NCBI GenBank assembly: GCA_023662875.1
Contig: JAMPIG010000040.1
Location: 1-33,866 of the forward strand
DNA length: 33,866 nucleotides
DNA from: Roseburia sp.
GTDB taxonomy: Bacteria > Bacillota > Clostridia > Lachnospirales > Lachnospiraceae
Reading direction: 5' to 3'
In this document: positions 5,271 through 18,852 of the stretch, in pieces
How the letters are laid out: each line of letters begins with the position of its first letter
How positions within the stretch are numbered: the first letter of the stretch is position 1
Position numbers and translations under genes: made by a program
The notes under the pieces: model-generated
Told to the model about the DNA's origin: nothing
What the model saw: only the letters and a program-made list of their open reading frames with translations
Databases searched by the model: none

Positions 5271-5400
5271 TGATATAAAGTAACCCGTCAACCGTACGGA
5301 CGCCGGAAGAAAATCCGCCCCACGGCATCCGTACCGCAACAAAGCAACACGGCCGCGGCATTTGTCCGGCCGAAAACTTATTACGCGAGGAGGATATATC

Positions 5401-7050
5401 GTGAAAAAGAAAAAATGTACCAGATTTTTAACTCTGCTCCTGACATGTTTGCTGGTGCTCTCAGCCCTGACGGCATGCGGCGCAGAAAATGATCCGCCCG
5501 GATCAGATGTACAGCAATCTGATCCCGCTCAGTCAGGCGGGCAGCAAGACGAAAGCGGCCAGACCGGCGGGGATGAGACGGACGGCCCCAGAACAGGCGG
5601 CACTCTCACCATCGCTTTCCCGGCTCAGCTGACAAATATCGGTTTTCCTATCGTGGGTGGTGTACAGCCCCTGTGGGCATCCAAACCGGCCATCGAAATG
5701 CTGGGACGCTACGATGAGAACGGTCAGGTATACGGCTGGCTTGCAAAGGAAATTCTTCCGGATCCGGATAATCTGCAGATTGTCTTAAAGCTTCAGGAAG
5801 GTGTAATGTACCACGACGGAACGCCCTTCAACGCGCAGGCTGTATGCGACGTTTGGCAGATTCTCATTGACAACGGCAGTGCCGGCTCTTATTTCTCCAA
5901 TGTGGAATCCTTTACGGCAACCGGCGAATACGAGGTTACCGTAAAACTGACGGAATGGCGCAGCAGCACTGTTTCCAATCTTTGTATCGAATGTGGCACT
6001 ATGATTTCTCCGACCGAATATAACCGCCTCGGTCTGGAGGGCATTTATACCAGCGTCGTAGGTACGGGTCCCTATAAGATGGACAGCTACGACATCGCCG
6101 AGGGCATCAAATATGTCCGCAACGACGATTACTGGATTGAGGGACAGCCCTATCTGGACGGCATTAATATTATTTTCTTCACAGAGGAAAACACCGGAGA
6201 AAGCATTTTCCGCACTGGAGAGGCGCAGATGATTTACGGCGCTTCCGCCAGCATGACGAACCGCTTAAGCCGCGACGGATTTGAAAAAATCTGCAACGAA
6301 GCCTGCATATCTCCTACCATGACAGGCATCTACTTTGCCAGCGGCAATGAAAACGACCCGATCAGCAAGCTGGAGGTGCGTCAGGCATTCAGCTATGCGT
6401 TAGACAAGCAGGCGCTTTGCGACACCTTTGCGGAGGGCATCGGCTTTGTCTCGGAACAGTTGGCCGTGCCCGGAAGCAAGGAATACAACGACGCGGTAGC
6501 CGGATATCCCTACAGCGTAGAGAAGGCAAAGGAAAAGCTCCGCGAGGCCGGATACGAGGATGGCGAATGCGTCGTTACCATCTATTACCAGCCTGTAAAC
6601 GAGGATATGTTTGTGGCGGTAAAGGGTATGCTGGAAGCGGCGGGCTTTAAGGTAGAAGGCGACACCCGCACCGGCGATGTCAGCCGGAATATGTACGGCA
6701 CGACGGATCCCTGGACATGCTGCGCGTTCTTCTGGGCACCCACGACATTGGAAAGCTGGCATCTGTTCTTTGGCAATCCGCCGGTGGTGTACGCAATCGA
6801 TACCATCGATATGGAAGAAGCAGGAATTTTTGAATGCTATAACAACTGCCTGACCGCTAAGACGACGGAGGAGCAGCACGAGGCAATGATGGAGCTGCAG
6901 CGTCTGGTCACCGAGGAATACTGCCTCTATACGCCTATGTTTGACACTCTCGCGCTGATTAATTTTTCAAACGGAACCGTCCATGATCACGGCATGGCTG
7001 AAACGTGGCTGTGCGAATGGACGCCTGAGACAATCTGGCTGAGCGAATAA
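5401..7050 (+). CDS. Peptide-type ABC transporter substrate-binding lipoprotein (SBP_bac_5)
   Basis: A lipoprotein of about 549 residues. The GTG at 5401 follows GAGGAGG with good spacing and gives a classic signal: a basic VKKKK start, a hydrophobic run and the lipobox LTAC, with Cys as the mature N-terminus. A linker rich in S, G, Q and D follows, then a family-5 binding domain with GGTLTIAFP, YHDGTPFNAQAVCDV, VVGTGPYKM, VRQAFSYALDKQALC and VEKAKEKLREAGYEDG. It captures substrate outside the membrane for the permeases downstream. The family binds oligopeptides, nickel, glycosides and some sugars, so the ligand is open. A strong hairpin after the gene probably raises its expression relative to the permeases. 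Confidence 0.95.
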   Translation: MKKKKCTRFLTLLLTCLLVLSALTACGAENDPPGSDVQQSDPAQSGGQQDESGQTGGDETDGPRTGGTLTIAFPAQLTNIGFPIVGGVQPLWASKPAIEMLGRYDENGQVYGWLAKEILPDPDNLQIVLKLQEGVMYHDGTPFNAQAVCDVWQILIDNGSAGSYFSNVESFTATGEYEVTVKLTEWRSSTVSNLCIECGTMISPTEYNRLGLEGIYTSVVGTGPYKMDSYDIAEGIKYVRNDDYWIEGQPYLDGINIIFFTEENTGESIFRTGEAQMIYGASASMTNRLSRDGFEKICNEACISPTMTGIYFASGNENDPISKLEVRQAFSYALDKQALCDTFAEGIGFVSEQLAVPGSKEYNDAVAGYPYSVEKAKEKLREAGYEDGECVVTIYYQPVNEDMFVAVKGMLEAAGFKVEGDTRTGDVSRNMYGTTDPWTCCAFFWAPTTLESWHLFFGNPPVVYAIDTIDMEEAGIFECYNNCLTAKTTEEQHEAMMELQRLVTEEYCLYTPMFDTLALINFSNGTVHDHGMAETWLCEWTPETIWLSE

Positions 7051-7059
7051 AGGTCCTTT

Positions 7060-7102
7060 ACAGGCCGGGCAGGACGGCAAATCCGTTTGCCTGGCCTGTT
7101 TT
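7060..7102 (+). terminator. Intrinsic terminator between binding protein and permease genes
   Basis: ACAGGCC-GGGCA pairs with TGCC-TGGCCTGT around the loop, followed by TTTTC. It would let some transcripts end after the lipoprotein gene while readthrough feeds the permease and ATPase genes. Confidence 0.7.
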
Positions 7103-7146
7103 CAAAATGACATCTGATCTGGCTATCATACGACGGAGACTGAGTG

Positions 7147-8091
7147 ATGGGAAGATTTATTTTTAAACGATTTATACAGACAATTATTATTCTGATGATG
7201 GTTTCGGTGCTCGCTTTTGCGCTGATCCAGTTCATCCCGGGCGATCCCGTATACGTCATGCTGGGGGAAAATATTTCGAAAGAATATCACGACACCGTAT
7301 ACAGCAGCATGGGGTTGGATAAGCCTCTCGTTCAGCAGTATTTTTCATGGCTGTGGAAAATGCTGCACGGAGATATGGGATATTCCTACCACTTCAACAA
7401 AAACGTGAATGAGCTGATTGCCTCGCGGCTGCCGGTCACGCTGATCCTGGGAGTCGCCTCTGCTGTTGTCAGCATTGTTCTGGGGATTCTTTTCGGCACG
7501 ATTACAGCCGTAAAGCGCGGCACCTTAACCGATACCGTTATCACCGTACTTGCGAATGTCGGTCTGGCGACGCCCAATTTCTGGATTGCCGTTTTACTGG
7601 TGCTGGTATTTTCCATTCATCTGAAATGGCTTCCGTCCTACGGATTTACGCTTCCATGGGTGGACTTCGGCAAGAGTATCCGGCAAATGATTCTCCCGGT
7701 TATCTGCATGAGCCTGGGCGGAGTGGCATCCTACACCCGCCAGATGCGTTCCAGCATGCTTGAGGTGATTCATCAGGATTATGTGCGCACCGCGCGCTCC
7801 AAGGGACTGCCGGAGGGAAAGGTTCTCTGGCGTTATGCCATCAAGAACAGTCTGATCCCGATTCTCACCATGGCGGGCACAACGCTCCGTGGCTGTATCG
7901 GCGGATCCGCTATTGTAGAGACAATGTTTAACATTGTCGGCATGGGGCAGATCATGGTGATTGCAATCAATTTCTGCGATTATCAGCTTCTGCAGTCCGG
8001 CCTGCTTTTCATGGCGGCGATCACATGTCTGTGCAATCTGCTGGTGGATATCGCCTATGCCTACGCCGATCCGCGCATCAGGCTCGAATAG
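7147..8091 (+). CDS. ABC transporter permease, DppB/OppB type
   Basis: A 314-residue inner permease with about six helices. The N-terminus RFIFKRFIQTIIILMMVS followed by IQFIPGDPV is diagnostic of the DppB/OppB family, and the EAA loop that contacts the ATPase is DYVRTARSKGLPEG. The ATG at 7147 is chosen because GGAG lies eight bases upstream; a GTG at 7144 would add one residue. It pairs with the next permease, ten bases downstream, to form the membrane channel of the importer. Confidence 0.95.
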   Translation: MGRFIFKRFIQTIIILMMVSVLAFALIQFIPGDPVYVMLGENISKEYHDTVYSSMGLDKPLVQQYFSWLWKMLHGDMGYSYHFNKNVNELIASRLPVTLILGVASAVVSIVLGILFGTITAVKRGTLTDTVITVLANVGLATPNFWIAVLLVLVFSIHLKWLPSYGFTLPWVDFGKSIRQMILPVICMSLGGVASYTRQMRSSMLEVIHQDYVRTARSKGLPEGKVLWRYAIKNSLIPILTMAGTTLRGCIGGSAIVETMFNIVGMGQIMVIAINFCDYQLLQSGLLFMAAITCLCNLLVDIAYAYADPRIRLE

Positions 8092-8101
8092 GGAGGTAAT
8101 C

Positions 8102-8950
8102 ATGGGAAAACGTGTAAAACAGTTTTTATCGGTTCTTTTTGGCAGAAAGATCGTACTGATCTCCGCCATCGTCATTCTATTTTTTGCATTTTGCGCCATA
8201 GCGTCGCCGCTGATGGCACCCTGCGACCCGTATGAGCAGGATCTGTCCAACCGGCTGGCAGGTGCCTCCCGCGAACATTGGCTGGGAACGGATCAGCTGG
8301 GCCGGGATCTGTACAGCCGTATCGTCTACGGCACAAGGGTTGCGTTTCTGGTCGGTATTCTGGCCGTCTTTATCGCCGCCGCCCTCGGCTGTGCCATCGG
8401 CCTGATATCCGGATATTTTGGCGGATGGGTTGACAATATTCTGATGCGGATTATGGAGGCACAGATGGCGATTCCGCCCCTCATTTTAGCTCTGGCGCTG
8501 GTAGCCGTATTCGGGCGGAGCGTCCCCATGCTCATCTTTGTGCTGGGCATTTCGGCGATTCCCGGCTTCGCCAGAATGATGCGCGGACAGGTACTCAGCA
8601 TCCGCGAAATGGACTATATAGCTGCCAGCCGGATCCGCGGCAATTCCAATCTGACTACCATGATACGGCACATTTTCCCAAACTGCCTGTCCCCTATTAT
8701 CGTGATCATGACCCAGAGTATCGGCGGAACTATCCTGGCCGAGGCAGGCATGAGCTTTCTGGGCGCAGGCATTGTGCCGCCTACCGCTTCCTGGGGAGCA
8801 ATGGTAAACGCCGGGTATTCTTATATCTATGACGCGCCCCTGTTCGCGCTGGCTCCCGGCATTGCGATCATCCTTCTGGTACTTGCATTTAACATTTTTG
8901 GCGACGGGCTGCGGGATGCGCTTGATCCACGGCTCAGAGGCACGATATAA
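8102..8950 (+). CDS. ABC transporter permease, DppC/OppC type
   Basis: A 282-residue second permease. The N-terminal OppC segment, the motif HWLGTDQLGRDLYSRI and the EAA loop DYIAASRIRGNSN identify the family, and the C-terminus DGLRDALDPRLRG is typical. The frame runs open upstream, but the ATG at 8102 is preceded by GGAGG at 8092-8096 and matches family starts, so the longer version is rejected. It lies ten bases after the DppB-type gene and eleven before the ATPase gene, a compact operon. Confidence 0.95.
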   Translation: MGKRVKQFLSVLFGRKIVLISAIVILFFAFCAIASPLMAPCDPYEQDLSNRLAGASREHWLGTDQLGRDLYSRIVYGTRVAFLVGILAVFIAAALGCAIGLISGYFGGWVDNILMRIMEAQMAIPPLILALALVAVFGRSVPMLIFVLGISAIPGFARMMRGQVLSIREMDYIAASRIRGNSNLTTMIRHIFPNCLSPIIVIMTQSIGGTILAEAGMSFLGAGIVPPTASWGAMVNAGYSYIYDAPLFALAPGIAIILLVLAFNIFGDGLRDALDPRLRGTI

Positions 8951-8961
8951 GGAGGCGGAAA

Positions 8962-10977
8962 ATGGAAGAACATTTGTTAGACATCAGACATCTCCAGACT
9001 GTTTTTCACACCCGGGACGGACTGGTCCGCGCGGTGGACGACGTCTCGCTCCATGTAGATCCCGGCGAGATCGTCGGCGTGGTCGGAGAATCCGGAAGCG
9101 GAAAGTCCGTCACCATGATGAGCATATTAAAGCTGATTCCCATGCCGCCGGGCGAAATCGTAAAGGGAGAAGCGTTTTTCGAGGGAAAGGATATTCTGCA
9201 CTACAAAGTCGGAAGCAGCGAGCTGCGCCGGGTTCGCGGGGGCGGTATTTCCATGATTTTTCAGGAGCCTATGACCTCCTTAAACCCGGTGATGACCGTT
9301 GGCGAGCAGATTCAGGAAAGTGTTATGCTGCATCTTGGCATGAAAAAGAAAGAGGCAAGAGAGCGCGCTATCGAGTTGCTTGGCATGGTTGGTATCCCTG
9401 ACAGTCAAAGCAGAATCGATTACTATCCCAACCAGTTTTCCGGCGGTATGCGCCAACGCGTGATGATTGCCATGGCTATGTCCTGTAATCCCCGGCTCCT
9501 GATCGCAGACGAGGCGACTACCGCCCTGGATGTGACCACGCAGGAACAGATTTTGGAGCTGCTGCGCGATATCGTCCGCAAGACACATACCGCGCTGATT
9601 ATCATCACTCACAATCTGAGCATCATTGCAAGATATGCCGACCGCATTTATGTGATGTACGCGGGAAATATCGTAGAGAGAGGTGCCTGCAGGGAGCTGT
9701 TTTCCGACGCGTGCCACCCCTACACCATGGGGCTGCTGCGCGCCATTCCCCGGCTTGACAGCGACAAGTCCAACAAACTGCTGTCGATTTCCGGTACGCC
9801 TTTAAATCCGGCGCAAAAGACCGGGTGCTGTCCCTTTGCTCCGCGCTGCTTTTACGCGAAGCCTGAATGCCGGGAGCCAAAGTCTCCTCCTGTGCAGGAA
9901 TATTCTCCCACCCACAGCGCAGCCTGTCATTTCCGCCGGGACGAGCTGAAAGCCGCCTCCGTCGCGCAGGAACAAAAGGCCGGAAAGCGGACGCTGTCGG
10001 AAGAACCTCTTTTAGAGGTTCGGCATCTGTGCAAATATTTTCCTGTCACTCAGGGAATCACGCGTCGCAAGGTGGGGGACGTCAAGGCTTTGGACGACGT
10101 CAGTTTTACCGTCCGCAAGGGCGAAACCCTCGGGCTTGTAGGCGAGTCGGGCTGCGGTAAAACCACCCTTGCCAAAACGCTTCTACGGCTGTATGATGCT
10201 TCGGCCGGAGAAATCGTTTTCAAGGGCCGCGATATCGCCGGGCTGAAAGAAAACAGGGTGCGTGATCTGCGCAGAGAGGTTCAGTTCATTTTCCAGGATC
10301 CCTTCGGCTCACTGGATCCGAGACAAAGCGCAGGAAGCGTGGTGGGCGAGGCGATCCGCGTCCATCGTCTGGCGTCCTCCAGAGCGGAGTATGACCGGAA
10401 GGTGGATGAGCTGTTTGAGGCCGTCGGCCTGGACCCGCTTCTGAAGACCAGAGCCCCTCACGAATTTTCCGGTGGACAGCGGCAGCGGCTTTGTATTGCG
10501 GGCGCGTTGGCCTCCGATCCCAGCTTTATCATCTGCGACGAGCCGATTTCGGCGTTGGACGTGTCGATTCAGTCCCAGATTATCAATCTGCTGATCGATT
10601 TACAGGCGCAGCGCGGGCTGACCTACCTTTTCATCGCGCACGATCTCTCCGTCGTCCGGCATGTGAGCGACCGGATCCTTGTAATGTATCTGGGAAAATG
10701 TGTCGAAATATCTCCGTGGGACGAGCTGTATCAGCGCCCGCTCCATCCTTACACGCAGGCTCTGCTCTCGGCAATACCGATCCCCGATCCGGAAGCTGAG
10801 GCGAAACGCAGTCATACCGGAATTATCGGCGAGGTTCCCAGTCTGATGAACCGCCCCGCCGGATGCGTCTTCCATACGCGCTGTCCTCATGCGACAGAAA
10901 AATGCCGCTCCGCCATACCTGAACTCAGGGATTGCGGCAACGGCCATCAGGTCGCCTGCTTTCTGGCGGACGGCTGA
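8962..10977 (+). CDS. Fused dual ATPase of the peptide-type ABC importer (DppD-DppF fusion)
   Basis: A 671-residue protein with two complete nucleotide-binding domains, normally two separate proteins. Domain 1 has Walker A GESGSGKS (42-49), signature FSGGMRQ near 160 and Walker B LLIADEA near 180, then the oligopeptide-type C-terminal cysteine region [16 protein letters not shown]. Domain 2 has Walker A GESGCGKT (394-401), signature FSGGQRQ near 502 and Walker B FIICDEP near 524, and ends with a second such region, [14 protein letters not shown]. Signatures and Walker motifs in both halves look intact, so both ATP sites should work. GGAGG precedes the ATG. A strong hairpin follows, so this is the last gene of the transport operon. 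Confidence 0.95.
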
Positions 10978-12205: not shown

Positions 12206-12248
12206 TGAAAAGTTAACTTCCACTTCTTGTGGGTACAAGTGGAAGTTA
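12206..12248 (-). terminator. Intrinsic terminator of the MMPL-GLUG operon
   Basis: On the minus strand TAACTTCCACTT pairs with AAGTGGAAGTTA over 12 perfect base pairs and is followed by ACTTTTCAC. It lies about 25 bp after the stop of the GLUG protein gene. Confidence 0.75.
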
Positions 12249-12272: not shown

Positions 12273-15263
12273 TTACGCGGGCTTCTTCCTCTTCCGCCTC
12301 CGCAGTCCTCCGCCCAGAAGCGCCGCCGCCAATACGGCGCAGCCGCCGACGGCTATACCGATCCGCAGTCGGTTGTCGCCGTTTGACAGAGGCGTCACCC
12401 GGTAAATACCGGCGGGCGGCAGAATGAATTCCACGTAGCTGCCGATAACGGAGGTCTGTTTCTGAGTCCAGCTGCCGTTCTCGTACAGCTCCACCGACAT
12501 CCGTTCCGGCTCCTCGCAGAGAACCCGTACCGTAACCGATTCCCCGTAGGTTTCCGCTATAAGACCCGCCTCATCCCGGTATACGACCTGCAGCCGTTGT
12601 CCTTCCTCTTCCTCGGTCAGGCTGAGCTCTGCCCCCGGCCGGAAGCTTCCCTGTACCAGGACAAGGGATTTCCCGCTTTCGTCCTTTTCCGCTCCGGCCA
12701 GTGTAGAAATCCAGGGCTGATACTGGGCGTCAAGGATTCGATTCCTGCGGACTGTCCTGTCCTCCAGATCCGGCCAGACGCCGTAACAGCCCTCTTTCTC
12801 AGGAATCTGCGGAATTTGCGCCTCCTCGATTACGTCGCCATATTGGCAGGTCAGGACAGCCAGCTCCTGTCCGTCCGCCCGAAAAATCACTGTAAATTCC
12901 CGAAAGGCCGTGGGAACGCTTTCCATACGGCAGAGCTCTTCATATTCCACGGGCGCGGCACCACCCTCATACCCCACATTGTCCACACCGGCTATGCCGC
13001 CCCTCACATAATAATTTTCTCTCAGGATTCCCTCGGTATCGATCTGGCCCGCGATGGAACCGCCGTATTCCCCCTCCAGCAGCAGCTCCGGGTAGGCGTA
13101 GCAGCCAAAGAGATCGCAGCCCCTGCCGACGATTCCGCCTACATAATTTTTTCCGCTGATATTTCCCAGGAAGGAACAGCTTCGGACGGCGTAGCCGGAC
13201 GCCCCGGCGATCCCCCCGACATAACTGCCGCCGGCGCTGGATACGGCACCGTAGGATTCACAGGAAATAATCGCGCCGAAGTCCGCCTTGCCGACGATTC
13301 CGCCCGCATAATCCTTCTTGCCGGTGATTTCGCCGAAATTAGCGCTCTCCCGGACGATGGCTTTTACCGTTTGCTCGATGTGGAAGCTTTCTTCTCCGGT
13401 GAGCTCGATATCGTCCTCCGGGTCGAAGTCGTATTCGGTAGCAACCTGCCCCACGATACCGCCGACAGCGGTATCGGCCGTCACGTTCCCCTTATTGACG
13501 CAGAGAGTGATTTTCCCCTGCTGGAAGGACGAGGTGTCATAATAAGCCTTCTCCTGCTCCGCTCCCGGCTCCGCGGGAGTTTGGCCCGCCGCTTCGTCGG
13601 AGGCGTCCTCCACCGAGATTCCCTCGTATCGGAACAGATCGTCCCGCAGTTCGCGGATGGAGTTGTGCAGAATCCTTGCCTGCGCCGCTACGGCGTCCAC
13701 ATCCCCTCCCACCTGATCCGTCTCTTTCAGCAGCAGATCCGAAAGCTGCTGCAGATCGCTTACCGCGTTCTCCATTTCCCGGTTCAGAAACTCCAGGTTT
13801 CCGTTGATCCCGCCGCTTCGGTCGGAGGAGGCCGTCGTCATATTGGCGATATGGGAGGCCGTACTGTCTCCGAAGCGCCGGAGCGCCGCCTGATAGCTGT
13901 CGAGATCGATGGGGAACCAGGAGGAAATATTCCCTGCGTCCCCGCCGCTGACGGTGTAGTCTCCGAGATTTCCCGGGAAGGTATTCTGCGGGATGCTATT
14001 CTCCTGGTTTGCGTCCTGCAGATCCGTATTCAGACGCTTTATATCGCTGCCGATCCCGGTCAGCTCCTGGTTGTAAATGTACCAGAGTTCATTGGCTGTG
14101 CCGGTCAGATAGCTGGCGGTGTCGGAAATATTCCGCAGGCGGGTCGTCAGCGACCCTGCCAGCTCGGAAGTCTGCCTGCCGTAGCGGTTCAGATCCTGAT
14201 GGGCCGCATCCATAAGCTCCAGAAGCGTTTCCGCTTCCCGGTCGATTTCGTCCAGCTTGTCGCTCAAATAGCGGATCTCCAGAAAGGGCTCCATCTGCCC
14301 CGCAATTCCGCCCACATCCTTCCGACCATACACGTCGCCGGTGTTAGTGCAGCTCTGCAGATACCCCTGATGAAGACGGCCGACGATGCCTCCCGTATTA
14401 TAGCCCACATGCGGATATCCGACCGTGCCGGTGTTAGTGCAGAAGTAGATCTTTCCCTCCGAATATCCGACGATGCCGCCCGTATCTGTGCGGGCTCCTA
14501 TATTAGACATATCGTTCAGATTCTCCAGGTTTTCCATGGTAAGATCGTCCAGGCGGTAGGTTACCTCCCGGCTGTAGGCGTTGATTTTCCCCTCGTTGGA
14601 GCAGTTGTTCAGTGTTCCGTAGTTAGCGCCGCAGATACCTCCTACGCAATGATCTCCAGCCACCAAAACCGCCGCGCTGCACCCTCTGATTTCTCCGGAG
14701 GCTCGGTTGACGCCCACAAGACCTCCGACCGTCTCCTCGCCGGTCACGCTGCCCGTGGCGCTGCAGCTTCGTATTTCTCCGTAATTGACGCCGGCTAAAA
14801 GTCCGACGTCAGTTTGGCTCCCCTGGGGATGTACCCTTCCGGAAACCCGGAGGTTGCGGACGACGGCTCCCTCACGGATATAGCGGAACAATCCTATGGC
14901 GGAGCCGGAGGCTTCCGTCTCCAGGTTGGAAATCTGGTAGCCGCAGCCGTCAAAGATACCGCCGAAGCCTGGAATCATCAGATCCCGGTGCTCCTTCAGG
15001 ACAATATCACCGTCCAGCAGGACATATTTATCTACAGACCAGGAATCCAGCTCGCAGTCCGCCGCCAGCCTGACCAGATCCTCCTCCGTGGCGATATGGA
15101 TTTGGGTATATTCGAGCTCCGCCCGCTCTGTTTTTGTCCCTGCAAGATATTCTTCATAGGTTTTGCCGCTTTCCGCCGCGGACACGGTCAGCTGTCCGGG
15201 AAGCAGAAGCGCTCCGCACAGCGCAAGTGACACACATGTCATAATATTTCTATCTTTTCTCAT
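12273..15263 (-). CDS. GLUG-repeat surface protein with helical insert and C-terminal membrane anchor
   Basis: A 996-residue exported protein. It has a signal peptide (residues 1-30, ending VSAAES), a first block of GLUG-type repeats (about 140-320; VGGLVG, VGGICG, TGGIVG and VGGIAG with CSNEG/CTNTG turns), a long predicted helical segment (about 324-545; LDEIDREAETLLELMD and ENAVSDLQQLSDLL), a second GLUG block (about 580-745), a beta-rich region and a final TM helix (about 968-986) followed by RRRKRKK. GLUG repeats usually form beta-solenoids on the cell surface. The ATG overlaps the stop of the MMPL gene (ATGA) behind GGAGGTAA, so the two are coupled and probably work together. Confidence 0.9.
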   Translation of the reverse strand: MRKDRNIMTCVSLALCGALLLPGQLTVSAAESGKTYEEYLAGTKTERAELEYTQIHIATEEDLVRLAADCELDSWSVDKYVLLDGDIVLKEHRDLMIPGFGGIFDGCGYQISNLETEASGSAIGLFRYIREGAVVRNLRVSGRVHPQGSQTDVGLLAGVNYGEIRSCSATGSVTGEETVGGLVGVNRASGEIRGCSAAVLVAGDHCVGGICGANYGTLNNCSNEGKINAYSREVTYRLDDLTMENLENLNDMSNIGARTDTGGIVGYSEGKIYFCTNTGTVGYPHVGYNTGGIVGRLHQGYLQSCTNTGDVYGRKDVGGIAGQMEPFLEIRYLSDKLDEIDREAETLLELMDAAHQDLNRYGRQTSELAGSLTTRLRNISDTASYLTGTANELWYIYNQELTGIGSDIKRLNTDLQDANQENSIPQNTFPGNLGDYTVSGGDAGNISSWFPIDLDSYQAALRRFGDSTASHIANMTTASSDRSGGINGNLEFLNREMENAVSDLQQLSDLLLKETDQVGGDVDAVAAQARILHNSIRELRDDLFRYEGISVEDASDEAAGQTPAEPGAEQEKAYYDTSSFQQGKITLCVNKGNVTADTAVGGIVGQVATEYDFDPEDDIELTGEESFHIEQTVKAIVRESANFGEITGKKDYAGGIVGKADFGAIISCESYGAVSSAGGSYVGGIAGASGYAVRSCSFLGNISGKNYVGGIVGRGCDLFGCYAYPELLLEGEYGGSIAGQIDTEGILRENYYVRGGIAGVDNVGYEGGAAPVEYEELCRMESVPTAFREFTVIFRADGQELAVLTCQYGDVIEEAQIPQIPEKEGCYGVWPDLEDRTVRRNRILDAQYQPWISTLAGAEKDESGKSLVLVQGSFRPGAELSLTEEEEGQRLQVVYRDEAGLIAETYGESVTVRVLCEEPERMSVELYENGSWTQKQTSVIGSYVEFILPPAGIYRVTPLSNGDNRLRIGIAVGGCAVLAAALLGGGLRRRKRKKPA

Positions 15264-17893
15264 CTTCTGTTACCTCCCGCGCTGACATTCCCGGAGCTGT
15301 TCTCCGCCGCTTCCCTCGCCGACGCGTCAGGGCTTTCGCCTGCGACTTCCAATATATGCGTCCCGGAGCCGCCTTCCGTGGTGTCCTGGATCCCGCCGAT
15401 TTCCTGAATCGTCCCCAGCCTCGGCGCCTCTCCGCTTTCCGGCGGAGCCTCCGGATTTAAGGCCTCTACCTCGTCCCGCGCCCGGACGACTGCGCCCATC
15501 TCCCCGTCGATCACGCCGCTGAATTCTCCGTCGATCACACCGTTTATATAACCCTTGATATGTCCCGACATACGGATCCTTCCTCCCGCCGGCAGCGGCT
15601 TTTGCAGCTCACGCTTTAAGGTAAACGCCGTCTTTTCGATAATAATGTCTCCCATCAGCAGAGTCTGCGGAAGTACCAGCAGCACCAGGAGGATAGAGGT
15701 TAACGTCCCTCTGCCCAGCGCCAGTCCGATGGCCGCTACCACCGCGTTGGAGGAGGTATTGCTGATGATAAAGCCTGCCGCCACGAGCATCGAGCCGCTG
15801 GTCACAATCGTAGGGAAGGCCTGATTTAAGGTCTCTACGATGGCCTCCTTGATCGGCAGGCAGGTTTTTAATTCCATATAGCGGCTGGTAATTACGATAG
15901 CGTAGTCGATGGTAGCGCCCATCTGGATCGCCGACACCACCAGATAACCGAGGAAGTACACCGATTCTCCCGTGAGATAGGGCAGGGAGAAATTCATCCA
16001 GATGCTGCCCTGGATCGAAAGCACCAGCAGCACCGGAAGCCCCGCGGACTGGAAGGTAAACAGCAGGATAATCATGACGAACAGAGCCGTCAGTACGGTA
16101 ATAATCGTATTGTCCATACCGAAGGACTCGCTGAGATCCCGGTTGCTGGTGGAGTTGCCCGCAAGCACAATGTCATCGCAGTTATAATACCGGGCTACCG
16201 TGTCACGGATCTTTTGAAGAGCCGCGTAGGTCTCCTCTCCTTCCGCCGGGACGGACAGATCCAGCACAAAACGGCTGTAGCTTTCTCCCAGCAGCTGATC
16301 CCGGGCAATGCTGATCCGGGAATAAGCGTCTGTCAGCGTCTCCTCCAGCTCGCTGTCCAGGGTAATGTTTCCGGTCTCCTTCTGATCGTAAATAAACAGG
16401 AACATATCGATCAGCGGAACCCGGTATTCATTCACGCCGTTCAGCAGCGCCCCGTAATTGCTTTGATCCACCGCATAAACGGAATACAGAAGATCCGCCA
16501 CCTCGATATCCATATCGATCAGCTCCGCAAACTCCCGGGGCGAAAGCTGCCCGGTCAGCATATAGCCGTCCATTGCCTCGATATTGGCCAGGCCCATGCA
16601 GGATTTTACCTCATCCAGAGCTTCCAGCGCCCGCAGCGCCTGTCCCTCCCTCTCGTAGTCTCCGTTAGGCACCATGACCGCCAGCTGGTTCACTGTTCCG
16701 AATTCCCGGTTCACCATGGTGACCGAAAACTTATTGTCGCTCATCTTTTTCGCTTCCAGGGCGTTTACATCGTACACATAGTTTGTCTTGCCTGAAATGA
16801 TCGCCGCCACGATTACCACGACCACAAAGATCGGCGGTACGACAAATCTGGTAAACACGCAGAACTTTCCCACCGCCGTGATCTTCGGCACAAAGCTTTT
16901 GTGATGCGAATTGTCGATGGCTCTCGCAAAGGTCAGGAGCAGCCCGGGCATCAGGAAAAACACGGAAACCAGGCTGAGCACGATCGCCTTCGCCAGAACG
17001 ATTCCCATGTCATACCCGATCCGGAACTGCATAAACATCATCGCTACCATGCCCGAGACCGTAGTCAGGGAGCTGGAGGAAATCTCGGGGATGGCCTTGC
17101 TCAGGGCGACGATCACAGCCTCTCTGGCGTCCTTATCCTCGTGCTCCTCCATAAAGCGGTGGCAGAGGATAATGGCGTAGTCCACCGCCAGGGCCAGCTG
17201 CAGCACCACGGCGATGGAATCCGTGACGAAGCTGATGGTGCCAAAGATAAAGTTGCTGCCCTTGTTCAGAATCGCCGCGACAATAAAGGTCATAAGAAAT
17301 ACCGGAATTTCCGCGTAGGTAGTAGAGGTAAACAGGAGCACCGCAACGATTACCACTCCCGCCAGTATCAGGATCAGGATCATATCCCGGTTCAAGTCGG
17401 CCGCATCCCGTTCCTCCTGCCCGATATCGGAGGAGTAATAGGTATCGTAATTTTTCAGCTCCTCCAGCACCGCGTTCAGATGCTCCTGGGAGATCGCCTC
17501 CTCCGCCTCCCCGTCAAAGGTGAGGTCAAACAGCGCCTCCATATCATGATAATGTTCTTCCGAATCGTCAAAGGTCAGCATACTGACCCCTTCCAGGGAT
17601 TCCAGGCGCTCCGCAAGCTCCTGCGCCTCCGCGAACGTCACGTTGCAAACCATGACCCTGGCTGTGCCGTAAGTAGTAAACTGCTCCTCCATCAGATCCA
17701 GGCCGATTCGGGTCTCCGTCGTCCCCGGCAGATAAGAGGTCAGGTCATTGTTTACCTTAACCTTATTCATGGAAGCGATGCTGAATAAAATCAGCATGAT
17801 AAAAATCAGATAAAATCCTTTACGCTTATCTACGATCAACGTAGACAGCTTTATCATAAAGGACTCATCCTTCTTTCCGTTTTCCTTCGTCAT
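15260..17893 (-). CDS. MMPL/RND-family transporter
   Basis: An 877-residue proton-driven transporter of the MMPL type, with two repeats of one helix plus five helices and large outside loops (about residues 45-160 and 375-545). The paired proton-relay positions are visible: LALAVDYAIILCHRF in the first half and MGATIDYAIVITSRYM in the second. The ATG at 17893 is chosen because GGAAGGG lies upstream and the longer frame would translate a palindromic repeat. An unusual tail of about 100 residues begins with six G-x-phi-x tetrapeptides (777-800), then becomes E/S/G-rich. It probably exports a lipid, peptide or other amphiphile, under control of the divergent TetR gene. Confidence 0.92.
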   Translation of the reverse strand: MTKENGKKDESFMIKLSTLIVDKRKGFYLIFIMLILFSIASMNKVKVNNDLTSYLPGTTETRIGLDLMEEQFTTYGTARVMVCNVTFAEAQELAERLESLEGVSMLTFDDSEEHYHDMEALFDLTFDGEAEEAISQEHLNAVLEELKNYDTYYSSDIGQEERDAADLNRDMILILILAGVVIVAVLLFTSTTYAEIPVFLMTFIVAAILNKGSNFIFGTISFVTDSIAVVLQLALAVDYAIILCHRFMEEHEDKDAREAVIVALSKAIPEISSSSLTTVSGMVAMMFMQFRIGYDMGIVLAKAIVLSLVSVFFLMPGLLLTFARAIDNSHHKSFVPKITAVGKFCVFTRFVVPPIFVVVVIVAAIISGKTNYVYDVNALEAKKMSDNKFSVTMVNREFGTVNQLAVMVPNGDYEREGQALRALEALDEVKSCMGLANIEAMDGYMLTGQLSPREFAELIDMDIEVADLLYSVYAVDQSNYGALLNGVNEYRVPLIDMFLFIYDQKETGNITLDSELEETLTDAYSRISIARDQLLGESYSRFVLDLSVPAEGEETYAALQKIRDTVARYYNCDDIVLAGNSTSNRDLSESFGMDNTIITVLTALFVMIILLFTFQSAGLPVLLVLSIQGSIWMNFSLPYLTGESVYFLGYLVVSAIQMGATIDYAIVITSRYMELKTCLPIKEAIVETLNQAFPTIVTSGSMLVAAGFIISNTSSNAVVAAIGLALGRGTLTSILLVLLVLPQTLLMGDIIIEKTAFTLKRELQKPLPAGGRIRMSGHIKGYINGVIDGEFSGVIDGEMGAVVRARDEVEALNPEAPPESGEAPRLGTIQEIGGIQDTTEGGSGTHILEVAGESPDASAREAAENSSGNVSAGGNRR

Positions 17894-18007: not shown

Positions 18008-18080
18008 TAGAATCAAAAATCCGATTCTATGATCTAAGGTCTCTTGTTGACATCAGTGTCTTTTACTGGACAGATGTTGA
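18008..18080. promoter_or_regulatory. Candidate TetR operators between the divergent genes
   Basis: Two imperfect palindromes. TAGAATC-N8-GATTCTA (18008-18029) extends to ATC.TAGAATC on each side. A second (18047-18080) pairs TTGACATCAGTGTC with GGACAGATGTTGA and overlaps the -35 of the tetR promoter. A TGTCCAGTAA word from the second site recurs inverted at 18176-18185. Either could bind the TetR dimer; which one does is not decidable here. Confidence 0.45.
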
Positions 18081-18105: not shown

Positions 18106-18276
18106 AAAGCAGAATAGAAAGGCAATACACATTTTTGGCGCGGCTGTGCATTTATCGACACTTTGCGGATTTTGTGTCCAGTAATTTACAATTTTTTAAG
18201 AAATTCGGTTCGGAAAGGAATGGCGATTGCCATAATTGCAAGGGTGGTCAACTGTTCTTTGGATAAGGAGAGCGGC

Positions 18277-18852
18277 ATGATGGGAAATGATAAGAAAGAC
18301 GGCACCGACCGGCGCGTCCGCAGGACACGCGCCCTGCTGCAGCAGGGACTGATACAGCTGATGGAGACAAAGGATGTCAAGGACATTTCCGTAAAGGAGT
18401 TATCCGATCTCGCCGATATCAACCGCGGGACATTTTATCTGCATTACACGGATATTTATGATATGCTGGAGAAGATGGAGGATGAGCTTTTTCGGGAATT
18501 CAACGAAATTCTGGATCGCACGCTTACCAGGGTGCCGGATTCCTCGGAGACAACGCTGAACGAGATCTTCGCCTTTCTGGAGCGCCACAGGGCCTTCGCC
18601 AGAGTCACCATGGGCCCTCATGGGGATCTGACCTTTGTAAATAAGCTGAAAAAACTGGTGCAGGAGCGCCTTTACAGTATCCTGACAGTGGCCCAGAAGG
18701 AACAGGATCTCGTCTATATCGAATCCTTTATCGTTTCCGGCTGTACCGGCGTTATCGAGACCTGGCTCAATCATCCGGATCCCAGGCCGCCGGAGGAAAT
18801 TGCCGCTATCTGCGAGGGGCTGCTGAGGAAGGGGTTTCATCTGGTGGAGTGA
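18277..18852 (+). CDS. TetR-family transcriptional regulator
   Basis: A protein of about 191 residues. The N-terminal helix-turn-helix is clear: RRTRALLQQGLIQLME, then ISVKELSDLADINRGTFYLHY, matching the TetR signature for helices 2-4. The C-terminal ligand domain contains SFIVSGCTGVIETWL, typical of the subgroup next to MMPL or YhgE-like genes. ATG at 18277 (or 18280) follows AAGGAG; the longer upstream frame is rejected. It is divergent from the MMPL-GLUG operon with about 380 bp between them and palindromes in the spacer, so repression of that operon and of itself is the likely role. The ligand is probably related to the exported compound. Confidence 0.9.
   Translation: MMGNDKKDGTDRRVRRTRALLQQGLIQLMETKDVKDISVKELSDLADINRGTFYLHYTDIYDMLEKMEDELFREFNEILDRTLTRVPDSSETTLNEIFAFLERHRAFARVTMGPHGDLTFVNKLKKLVQERLYSILTVAQKEQDLVYIESFIVSGCTGVIETWLNHPDPRPPEEIAAICEGLLRKGFHLVE

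Follow-up and report, generated by a model that had tools for sequence, protein, structure and literature searches.

Near-strict pairing of an MMPL-family pump with a GLUG-repeat surface protein that carries a helical insert in gut Clostridia

Pumps of the RND superfamily that work with adaptor proteins are mainly treated as a feature of two-membrane bacteria, and the MMPL genes of gut Clostridia are generally annotated as stand-alone transporters. Among the closest described systems are mycobacterial ones: according to two reports, the coiled-coil domain (CCD) of MmpL proteins drives oligomerization and is required for export (PMC12183618; PMC12803245), the domain of MmpL10 driving oligomers and forming a tubular extension (PMC12183618) and that of MmpL4 being an alpha-hairpin within the hexameric MmpS4-MmpL4 complex (PMC12803245). 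Adaptors with large hairpins are also known in Gram-positive bacteria for ABC systems (PMC4446572). Here we analysed a 33,866-nucleotide (nt) contig of Roseburia sp. (assembly GCA_023662875.1, contig JAMPIG010000040.1), hereafter the window, in which an MMPL-family pump gene runs into the gene of a surface protein built on GLUG repeats. A first-pass annotation, made from the window's sequence alone, had described two genes with an ATGA overlap, and both were confirmed on the minus strand (15260-17893 and 12273-15263).

The MMPL and GLUG genes are one unit, and their pairing is near-strict. Among 200 genomes of the family, a GLUG orthologue (best E < 1e-40) is present in 31 and a pump orthologue (E < 1e-150) in 32, the best pump match in any other of these genomes being 1e-84. 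Pump and partner are adjacent in 31 of the 32 genomes with a pump orthologue, and in the 32nd the pump gene runs up to a contig edge (hypergeometric p for co-occurrence 1.4e-35, phylogeny ignored). Seven other sampled genomes gave partial matches to the GLUG query (E 4.5e-11 to 1.4e-15). A partner homologue with no MMPL gene in its locus was seen intact only once in the 200 genomes (L059); a further one, L050, is a fragment at a contig start. In a 398-genome sample of the phylum, all six further orthologues stand next to the GLUG gene. Searching GTDB with the GLUG alignment alone retrieved at least 561 stretches encoding a relative, and in the best 80 of these loci, which were studied, the pump lies immediately upstream in 74 and is fused to the GLUG protein in five; the remaining locus is cut at a contig end. 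All these counts run over related genomes and are not independent events. L114, L128, L135 and L147 are loci already within the family sample, and L108, L110 and L111 are copies of L105 as judged by an identical 150-amino-acid (aa) centre; figures for distinct pairs (n=100) or partners (n=97) leave duplicates out, with close non-identical relatives remaining, and the 105-locus and 146-sequence counts include them. The first-pass annotation had coupled the surface protein to the pump, a proposal that would suffer if homologues of the two were rarely adjacent; adjacency is in fact conserved (31/32; 74/80 plus the five fusions), and the two proteins are naturally joined in some loci.

The five single-frame fusions (L104, L109, L125, L138 and L143) encode proteins of 1,806-2,152 aa, all of which keep a hydrophobic segment at the signal-peptide position of the GLUG protein. 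L104 and L109 are 90% identical, and L125 and L138 are 49% identical over 1,827 aa. A sequencing artefact, in which one indel merges the overlapping genes, is disfavoured and an assembly error is unlikely, because fused forms recur at these identities in separate records. In the unfused pairs the partner start was chosen by a best-start rule, on which the overlap and spacing counts depend: at the chosen start 88 of the 100 distinct pairs overlap, 20 of these with the ATGA type; the start lies within 30 nt of the pump stop in 92, and a Shine-Dalgarno-like core of at least four bases is found there in 96. This arrangement, which in the window includes a GGGAGGT inside the MMPL gene, points to translational coupling of the two genes. 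The terminator that the two genes were said to share is plausible as the perfect inverted repeat behind the GLUG stop, but that repeat is missing from the list returned by a terminator scan.

The surface protein matches the GLUG family (PF07581) with 63.7 bits against a curated cut-off of 20.5 and with six stretches at E <= 1; a PF07581 match at E <= 0.01 was found in 14 of 20 GLUG-partner orthologues. Its GGxxG-type cores occupy residues 171-318 and then 601-755, on either side of the mostly helical residues 327-559; the first-pass annotation had read GLUG blocks on both sides of about 220 helical residues. The C-terminal transmembrane segment (TM; 966-984) and basic tail RRRKRKK that it had described are likewise present. 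The N-terminal signal had escaped that annotation. To judge from the repeats, the GLUG blocks would form a beta-solenoid. A TM lies within the last 140 residues of 87 of the 97 distinct partners, and further in for seven of the remaining ten; a basic tail is present in 82. In four loci (L095, L098, L136 and L148) a complete HAD hydrolase is fused after the C-terminal TM, and since this enzyme follows the TM, a topology with the C-terminus in the cytoplasm and the repeats outside is supported. In L150 (4268-7813), a C-terminal extension past the TM looks by eye like an RsbW-type ATPase domain. Sortase anchoring is not indicated: a loose LPXTG-like motif precedes the TM in only two of the 97 distinct partners, and in a Pfam scan of four orthologues PF00746 scored only below its cut-off. 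Nor is membership of the YhgE/Pip family, with no pip_yhgE match in P0001, in 20 GLUG orthologues or in four partners of the second family described below. An InlB-type B repeat seen by eye in the C-terminal region is not claimed, as Pfam gave no such match for four orthologues.

In the helical insert, residues 327-423 and 459-559 show strong 100-degree (helical) hydrophobic periodicity, and a Pro/Gly-rich loop (424-458) lies between them. Two helical blocks of similar length joined by such a loop fit an antiparallel hairpin, which the arm of the window protein probably forms with about 90-100 residues per side. Periodicity was scored as a z value against composition-preserving shuffles, with a threshold of z > 3, in those of the 100 distinct partners whose insert could be delimited (52 strictly, 76 with looser flanks). 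It is helical in 51 of the 52 strict inserts, in 75 of the 76 looser ones and, with duplicates kept, in 56 of 57; among an equal number of adjacent solenoid stretches, none exceeds the threshold. A conserved turn, GRKDVGGIxGQMEP, immediately precedes the insert. Its length ranges from 150 to 839 aa among the 52 distinct proteins delimited on both flanks, and its sequence is poorly conserved. A helical region predicted to be disordered and lacking conservation had been named beforehand as grounds for giving up the first-pass idea; the helical character is kept, while sequence and length are not. A profile of 20 orthologues gave 350 PDB matches, and the 60 that were listed all fall over profile positions 325-645, that is, the insert; most of these 60 are coiled coils or helical bundles. 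The sole exception to the periodicity, in the strict and the loose set alike, is L059 (4541-7297), the second GLUG homologue of genome G047, whose 11.5-kb locus has no MMPL gene and whose insert is Asp/Ser-rich and not helical. As a single case, it agrees with an arm that depends on the pump.

The pump carries two MMPL-domain stretches on one chain (PF03176, E 2.8e-36), which places it in the MMPL family of the RND superfamily, and phmmer matched its sequence to MmpL3, MmpL4 and MmpL5 structures and, weakly, to HpnN structures. The Asp-Tyr pairs D238/Y239 and D663/Y664, which we take to be the proton relay in TM4 and TM10, are invariant across the 146 MMPL sequences that were compared, of which 100 are GLUG-type (a few of them duplicates) and 46 are not. 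The second outer loop, D2, measures 224-231 aa in 100 GLUG-type pumps, 101-148 aa in 41 pumps with another partner type and 671-856 aa in three giant pumps; no long coiled-coil insertion is therefore present within D2 of the 100 GLUG-type pumps. A tail of spaced glycines after the last TM recurs in 78 of 105 GLUG-type pump sequences, some of them incomplete or duplicate, and might form a small cytoplasmic beta-helix.

To see whether other MMPL pumps of the same genomes lack a partner, we took 46 non-GLUG MMPL loci down a match list, not at random. Four of them (L068, L069, L071 and L072) supplied the query domains, and the independent sample comprises 40 loci. In 37 of these 40, an adjacent same-strand gene matches the N-terminal domain of another partner family; the match criterion is this domain, and the helical region was examined in named members only. 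L158 is counted among the 37 by inspection and alignment, beyond the overlap limit of the script. In the members examined, a long helical or XXXLXXG stretch comes after the N-terminal domain. Three subtypes of the family align by profile in this domain, for which no Pfam or NCBIfam match was seen in the members examined (one listing covered 25 of 29 families). Members are the partners in L153-L192, L068, L069, L071, L072, L199 and L200; in L163 and L183 the partner gene lies upstream of the pump and not downstream. The window's own genome (G000:C83) has such a pair as well (L181 6625-8952). Exceptions among the 40 are L154, with no partner seen, and the giant MMPLs L169 and L191; among the six loci outside the 40, L067 and L070 have no recognized partner. 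The giants (L070 5007-8822, L169 2708-6361 and L191 2112-6257) are 1,217-1,381 aa long, and no partner gene was seen in the stretch examined around them. The statement of the first-pass annotation that MMPL proteins of monoderms usually lack such a partner thus fails in this family.

In a midpoint-rooted FastTree phylogeny of 95 MMPL rows, all 47 GLUG-type pumps form one clade (support 100). The group nearest to it consists of the giant pumps and L067 (support 99), and the rest of the tree holds pumps with the other partner type, except L154. Together with the partner survey, the tree makes the GLUG partner look like a clade-specific alternative: what we see looks like a wider habit, in which MMPL pumps are given a long additional element, either in trans or in cis, with the GLUG partner as the variant of one clade. 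Homology between the GLUG partner and the other partner type is not claimed, as the profile match covers the helical region only, and neither is a relation of the tandem helical units in the giant D2 to D2 of the window pump, for which the signal was weak.

The gene divergent from the pair encodes a TetR-type regulator, a possible regulator of the pair. Of 94 testable loci, 37 have a homologue of it in divergent orientation no more than 1.3 kb away, and by clustering a TetR gene lies near the pair in 43 of 105 loci; no other neighbour is present in more than 17 of the 105. Further recurring neighbour clusters in the 105 loci look by eye like phosphate-acyltransferase (17 loci), ABC ATPase (16), acyl kinase (16), HAD (12) and small phosphatase (11). 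No substrate was deduced from the gene neighbourhood. A perfect 10-bp inverted repeat (TTACTGGACA/TGTCCAGTAA) is found at 18063-18072 and 18175-18184, 102 nt apart, in the TetR-MMPL intergenic region, its second arm lying inside the called TetR open reading frame, whose start is uncertain; the two arms are possible operator half-sites. Two long open reading frames antisense to the pair (12597-14798, plus strand, 733 aa; 16901-17788, plus strand, 295 aa) are probably shadow frames. Elsewhere in the window, positions 5362-10977 (plus strand) hold an ordinary oligopeptide-type ABC importer operon with a binding protein, two permeases and a fused double ATPase. Coordinates are collected in Table 1.

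Table 1. Features of the pump-partner locus, in window positions
Feature	Position	Strand	Evidence
MMPL-family (RND superfamily) pump, 877 aa	15260..17893	-	PF03176 E 2.8e-36, two stretches
First outer loop/porter domain D1, pump residues 48-170	17384..17752	-	hydropathy and alignment
Second outer loop/porter domain D2, pump residues 369-595	16109..16789	-	
Pump C-terminal tail with spaced glycines, residues 772-800, presumably cytoplasmic	15494..15580	-	consensus
Shine-Dalgarno-like GGGAGGT, 8 nt ahead of the GLUG-gene ATG, within the MMPL gene	15272..15278	-	
Stop/start codon overlap ATGA, MMPL gene into GLUG gene	15260..15263	-	
GLUG surface protein, 996 aa	12273..15263	-	Pfam GLUG (PF07581) E 1e-17
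N-terminal signal/hydrophobic segment, residues 1-29 (hydrophobic 7-25)	15177..15263	-	
First GLUG block, residues ~98-326, ending in the conserved GRKDVGGIxGQMEP	14286..14972	-	
Helical insert, residues 327-559 (blocks 327-423 and 459-559, Pro/Gly-rich loop between)	13587..14285	-	
Second GLUG block, residues ~583-760	12984..13517	-	
C-terminal extracellular region, residues ~761-962, without Pfam domain	12378..12983	-	
C-terminal TM (966-984) and basic tail RRRKRKK	12276..12368	-	
Perfect 12-bp inverted repeat, 11-nt loop, 3' of the GLUG stop; possible terminator	12214..12248	.	
Divergent TetR-type regulator; start uncertain (TTG called)	18163..18852	+	TetR_C_8, E 6.8e-19

Taken together, we favour, with a rough probability of 0.55, the interpretation that the two genes encode one export machine, an RND-type pump with a dedicated, membrane-anchored outer subunit that bears a helical arm. 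The MMPL protein, a putative proton-driven RND-type pump, would take from the membrane a compound that is lipid-like or amphiphilic; an amphiphile or lipid as substrate is a guess from the MMPL family. The GLUG protein would be the dedicated outer subunit of this pump, anchored by its C-terminal TM with the tail in the cytoplasm, and its beta-solenoid would lie on the outer face, beside or on the porter domains, holding up the long alpha-helical arm. The arm would act like the CCD of MmpL4, MmpL5 and MmpL10 or like the hairpin of a membrane-fusion protein; by analogy with mycobacterial MmpL and with adaptor proteins, it may organize the pump into an oligomer, shelter the substrate on its way out of the membrane and into the wall, or do both. 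The divergent TetR regulator may induce the pair.

Several observations weigh against this interpretation. To our knowledge, monoderms have no outer-membrane factor to which the arm could dock, and no MmpS-family or membrane-fusion-protein/HlyD match was found for the partner among the Pfam and NCBIfam families listed (one orthologue listing covered 25 of 31 families, the remainder being single-member matches). The partners in L038, L063 and L141 have no C-terminal TM, and the pumps of L067 and L154 have neither a recognized partner nor a giant D2 insert. The neighbourhoods of the 105 loci share no widely recurring biosynthesis gene. Homology of the arm to the mycobacterial MmpL coiled coils had to be dropped: one of 20 orthologues (L040) matches TIGR00833 over 459-661, the D2 region, with E 4.9e-6, and this match is no better than those to SMC, MCE and other coiled-coil models, so that what is left is a coiled-coil resemblance only. 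Finally, the several-fold variation in arm length and the poor conservation of its sequence fit a spacer or flexible tether equally well as a channel.

This last point bears on a different role for the GLUG protein, namely that of a tether or scaffold whose solenoid binds a wall polymer or a neighbouring protein and whose helical spacer positions the pump, with no part in moving the substrate. That the arm varies so much in length, yet the solenoid cores and the insert flanks are conserved, speaks for such a role, as do the C-terminal TM of most partners and the continuity of the fused forms with the pump. We nevertheless hold it to be unlikely. The other partner family also has, where examined, a long helical region, and the MMPLs nearest to the GLUG-type clade carry extra mass in D2, which suggests something that the porter domains need, rather than placement alone. 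It is quite improbable, in our estimate, that the GLUG protein acts as a receptor or sensor, capturing or sensing an outside ligand and signalling across the membrane with the pump in response: the cytosolic domains past the TM in some partners (the HAD enzyme in four loci, the RsbW-like domain seen by eye in L150) and the often divergent TetR gene could serve such signalling, but a short basic tail ends most partners (82/97), and an HAD-like gene is, by eye, a separate neighbour in 12 loci, so the HAD fusion may be accidental. Operon structure by itself would also be compatible with a GLUG protein that the pump handles as cargo or client, or with one that is only co-regulated at the surface and never contacts the pump. 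We regard this as very improbable and disfavoured by the single-frame fusions, which occur in two or more divergent lineages, by the single clade formed by the GLUG-type pumps, and by the rarity of a partner without a pump (L059, intact, and the fragment L050).

Our preferred interpretation, a pump with a dedicated outer subunit, can be extended tentatively, though we are doubtful that the extension holds. The MMPL pumps of these Clostridia would then be obligate machines in which an extracellular helical arm is indispensable, and they would obtain it in three interchangeable ways: from a beta-rich, long-helix partner in trans, from a giant D2 in cis, or from a GLUG-solenoid partner. The last would represent a new class of RND adaptor, with arms bundled round the pump oligomer as a conduit into the wall. 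If true, single-membrane bacteria would have a counterpart of the tripartite pumps. A helical-arm partner that is near-strict, clade-specific and sometimes fused to its pump makes the existence of multi-part MMPL machines in monoderms directly testable. It also raises two questions, the role of an arm in cells without an outer membrane and the nature of what common gut bacteria export, and with the second partner family both apply to most of the other sampled MMPL loci (37/40). In the literature searched, we found no paper on an MMPL protein with GLUG, or on GLUG with a transporter in Lachnospiraceae. Altogether, the data suggest that gut Clostridia build hitherto unrecognized two-part export machines.

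Within the known systems, GLUG-motif surface proteins (PF07581) share with the partner the GLUG repeats and secretion, whereas the partner is split by a helical insert, anchored by a TM and paired with a pump. The partners of the other family likewise adjoin an MMPL gene. They begin, by eye, with a signal and a beta-rich domain, go on with a long helical or XXXLXXG stretch and have a strand-like motif at the C-terminus; their N-terminal domain, however, is unrelated. HexF of C. difficile was considered as a further MMPL protein and dropped, since it is MprF-like (PMC10128005). The periplasmic adaptor or membrane-fusion proteins of RND, MFS and ABC systems resemble the GLUG partner in being encoded with the pump and would resemble it in having a beta domain interrupted by an alpha-hairpin (in the partner a helical interruption is seen, the hairpin and the beta fold of its base being presumed); unlike them, the partner has GLUG repeats in place of lipoyl and barrel domains, and a C-terminal TM in addition. 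The mycobacterial proteins MmpL4, MmpL5 and MmpL10 also combine an MMPL-type pump with a long helical hairpin element outside the membrane, and MmpL4 and MmpL5 have a small operon partner (MmpS). In our pair, however, the helical element lies outside D2, flanked by GLUG blocks on a protein of its own, and the pair occurs in Clostridia, which we take to be monoderm. RND pumps served by a dedicated accessory protein on the outer side are a known kind of system, and a GLUG base for the accessory protein, unrecorded in the literature and families searched, is what sets this one apart.

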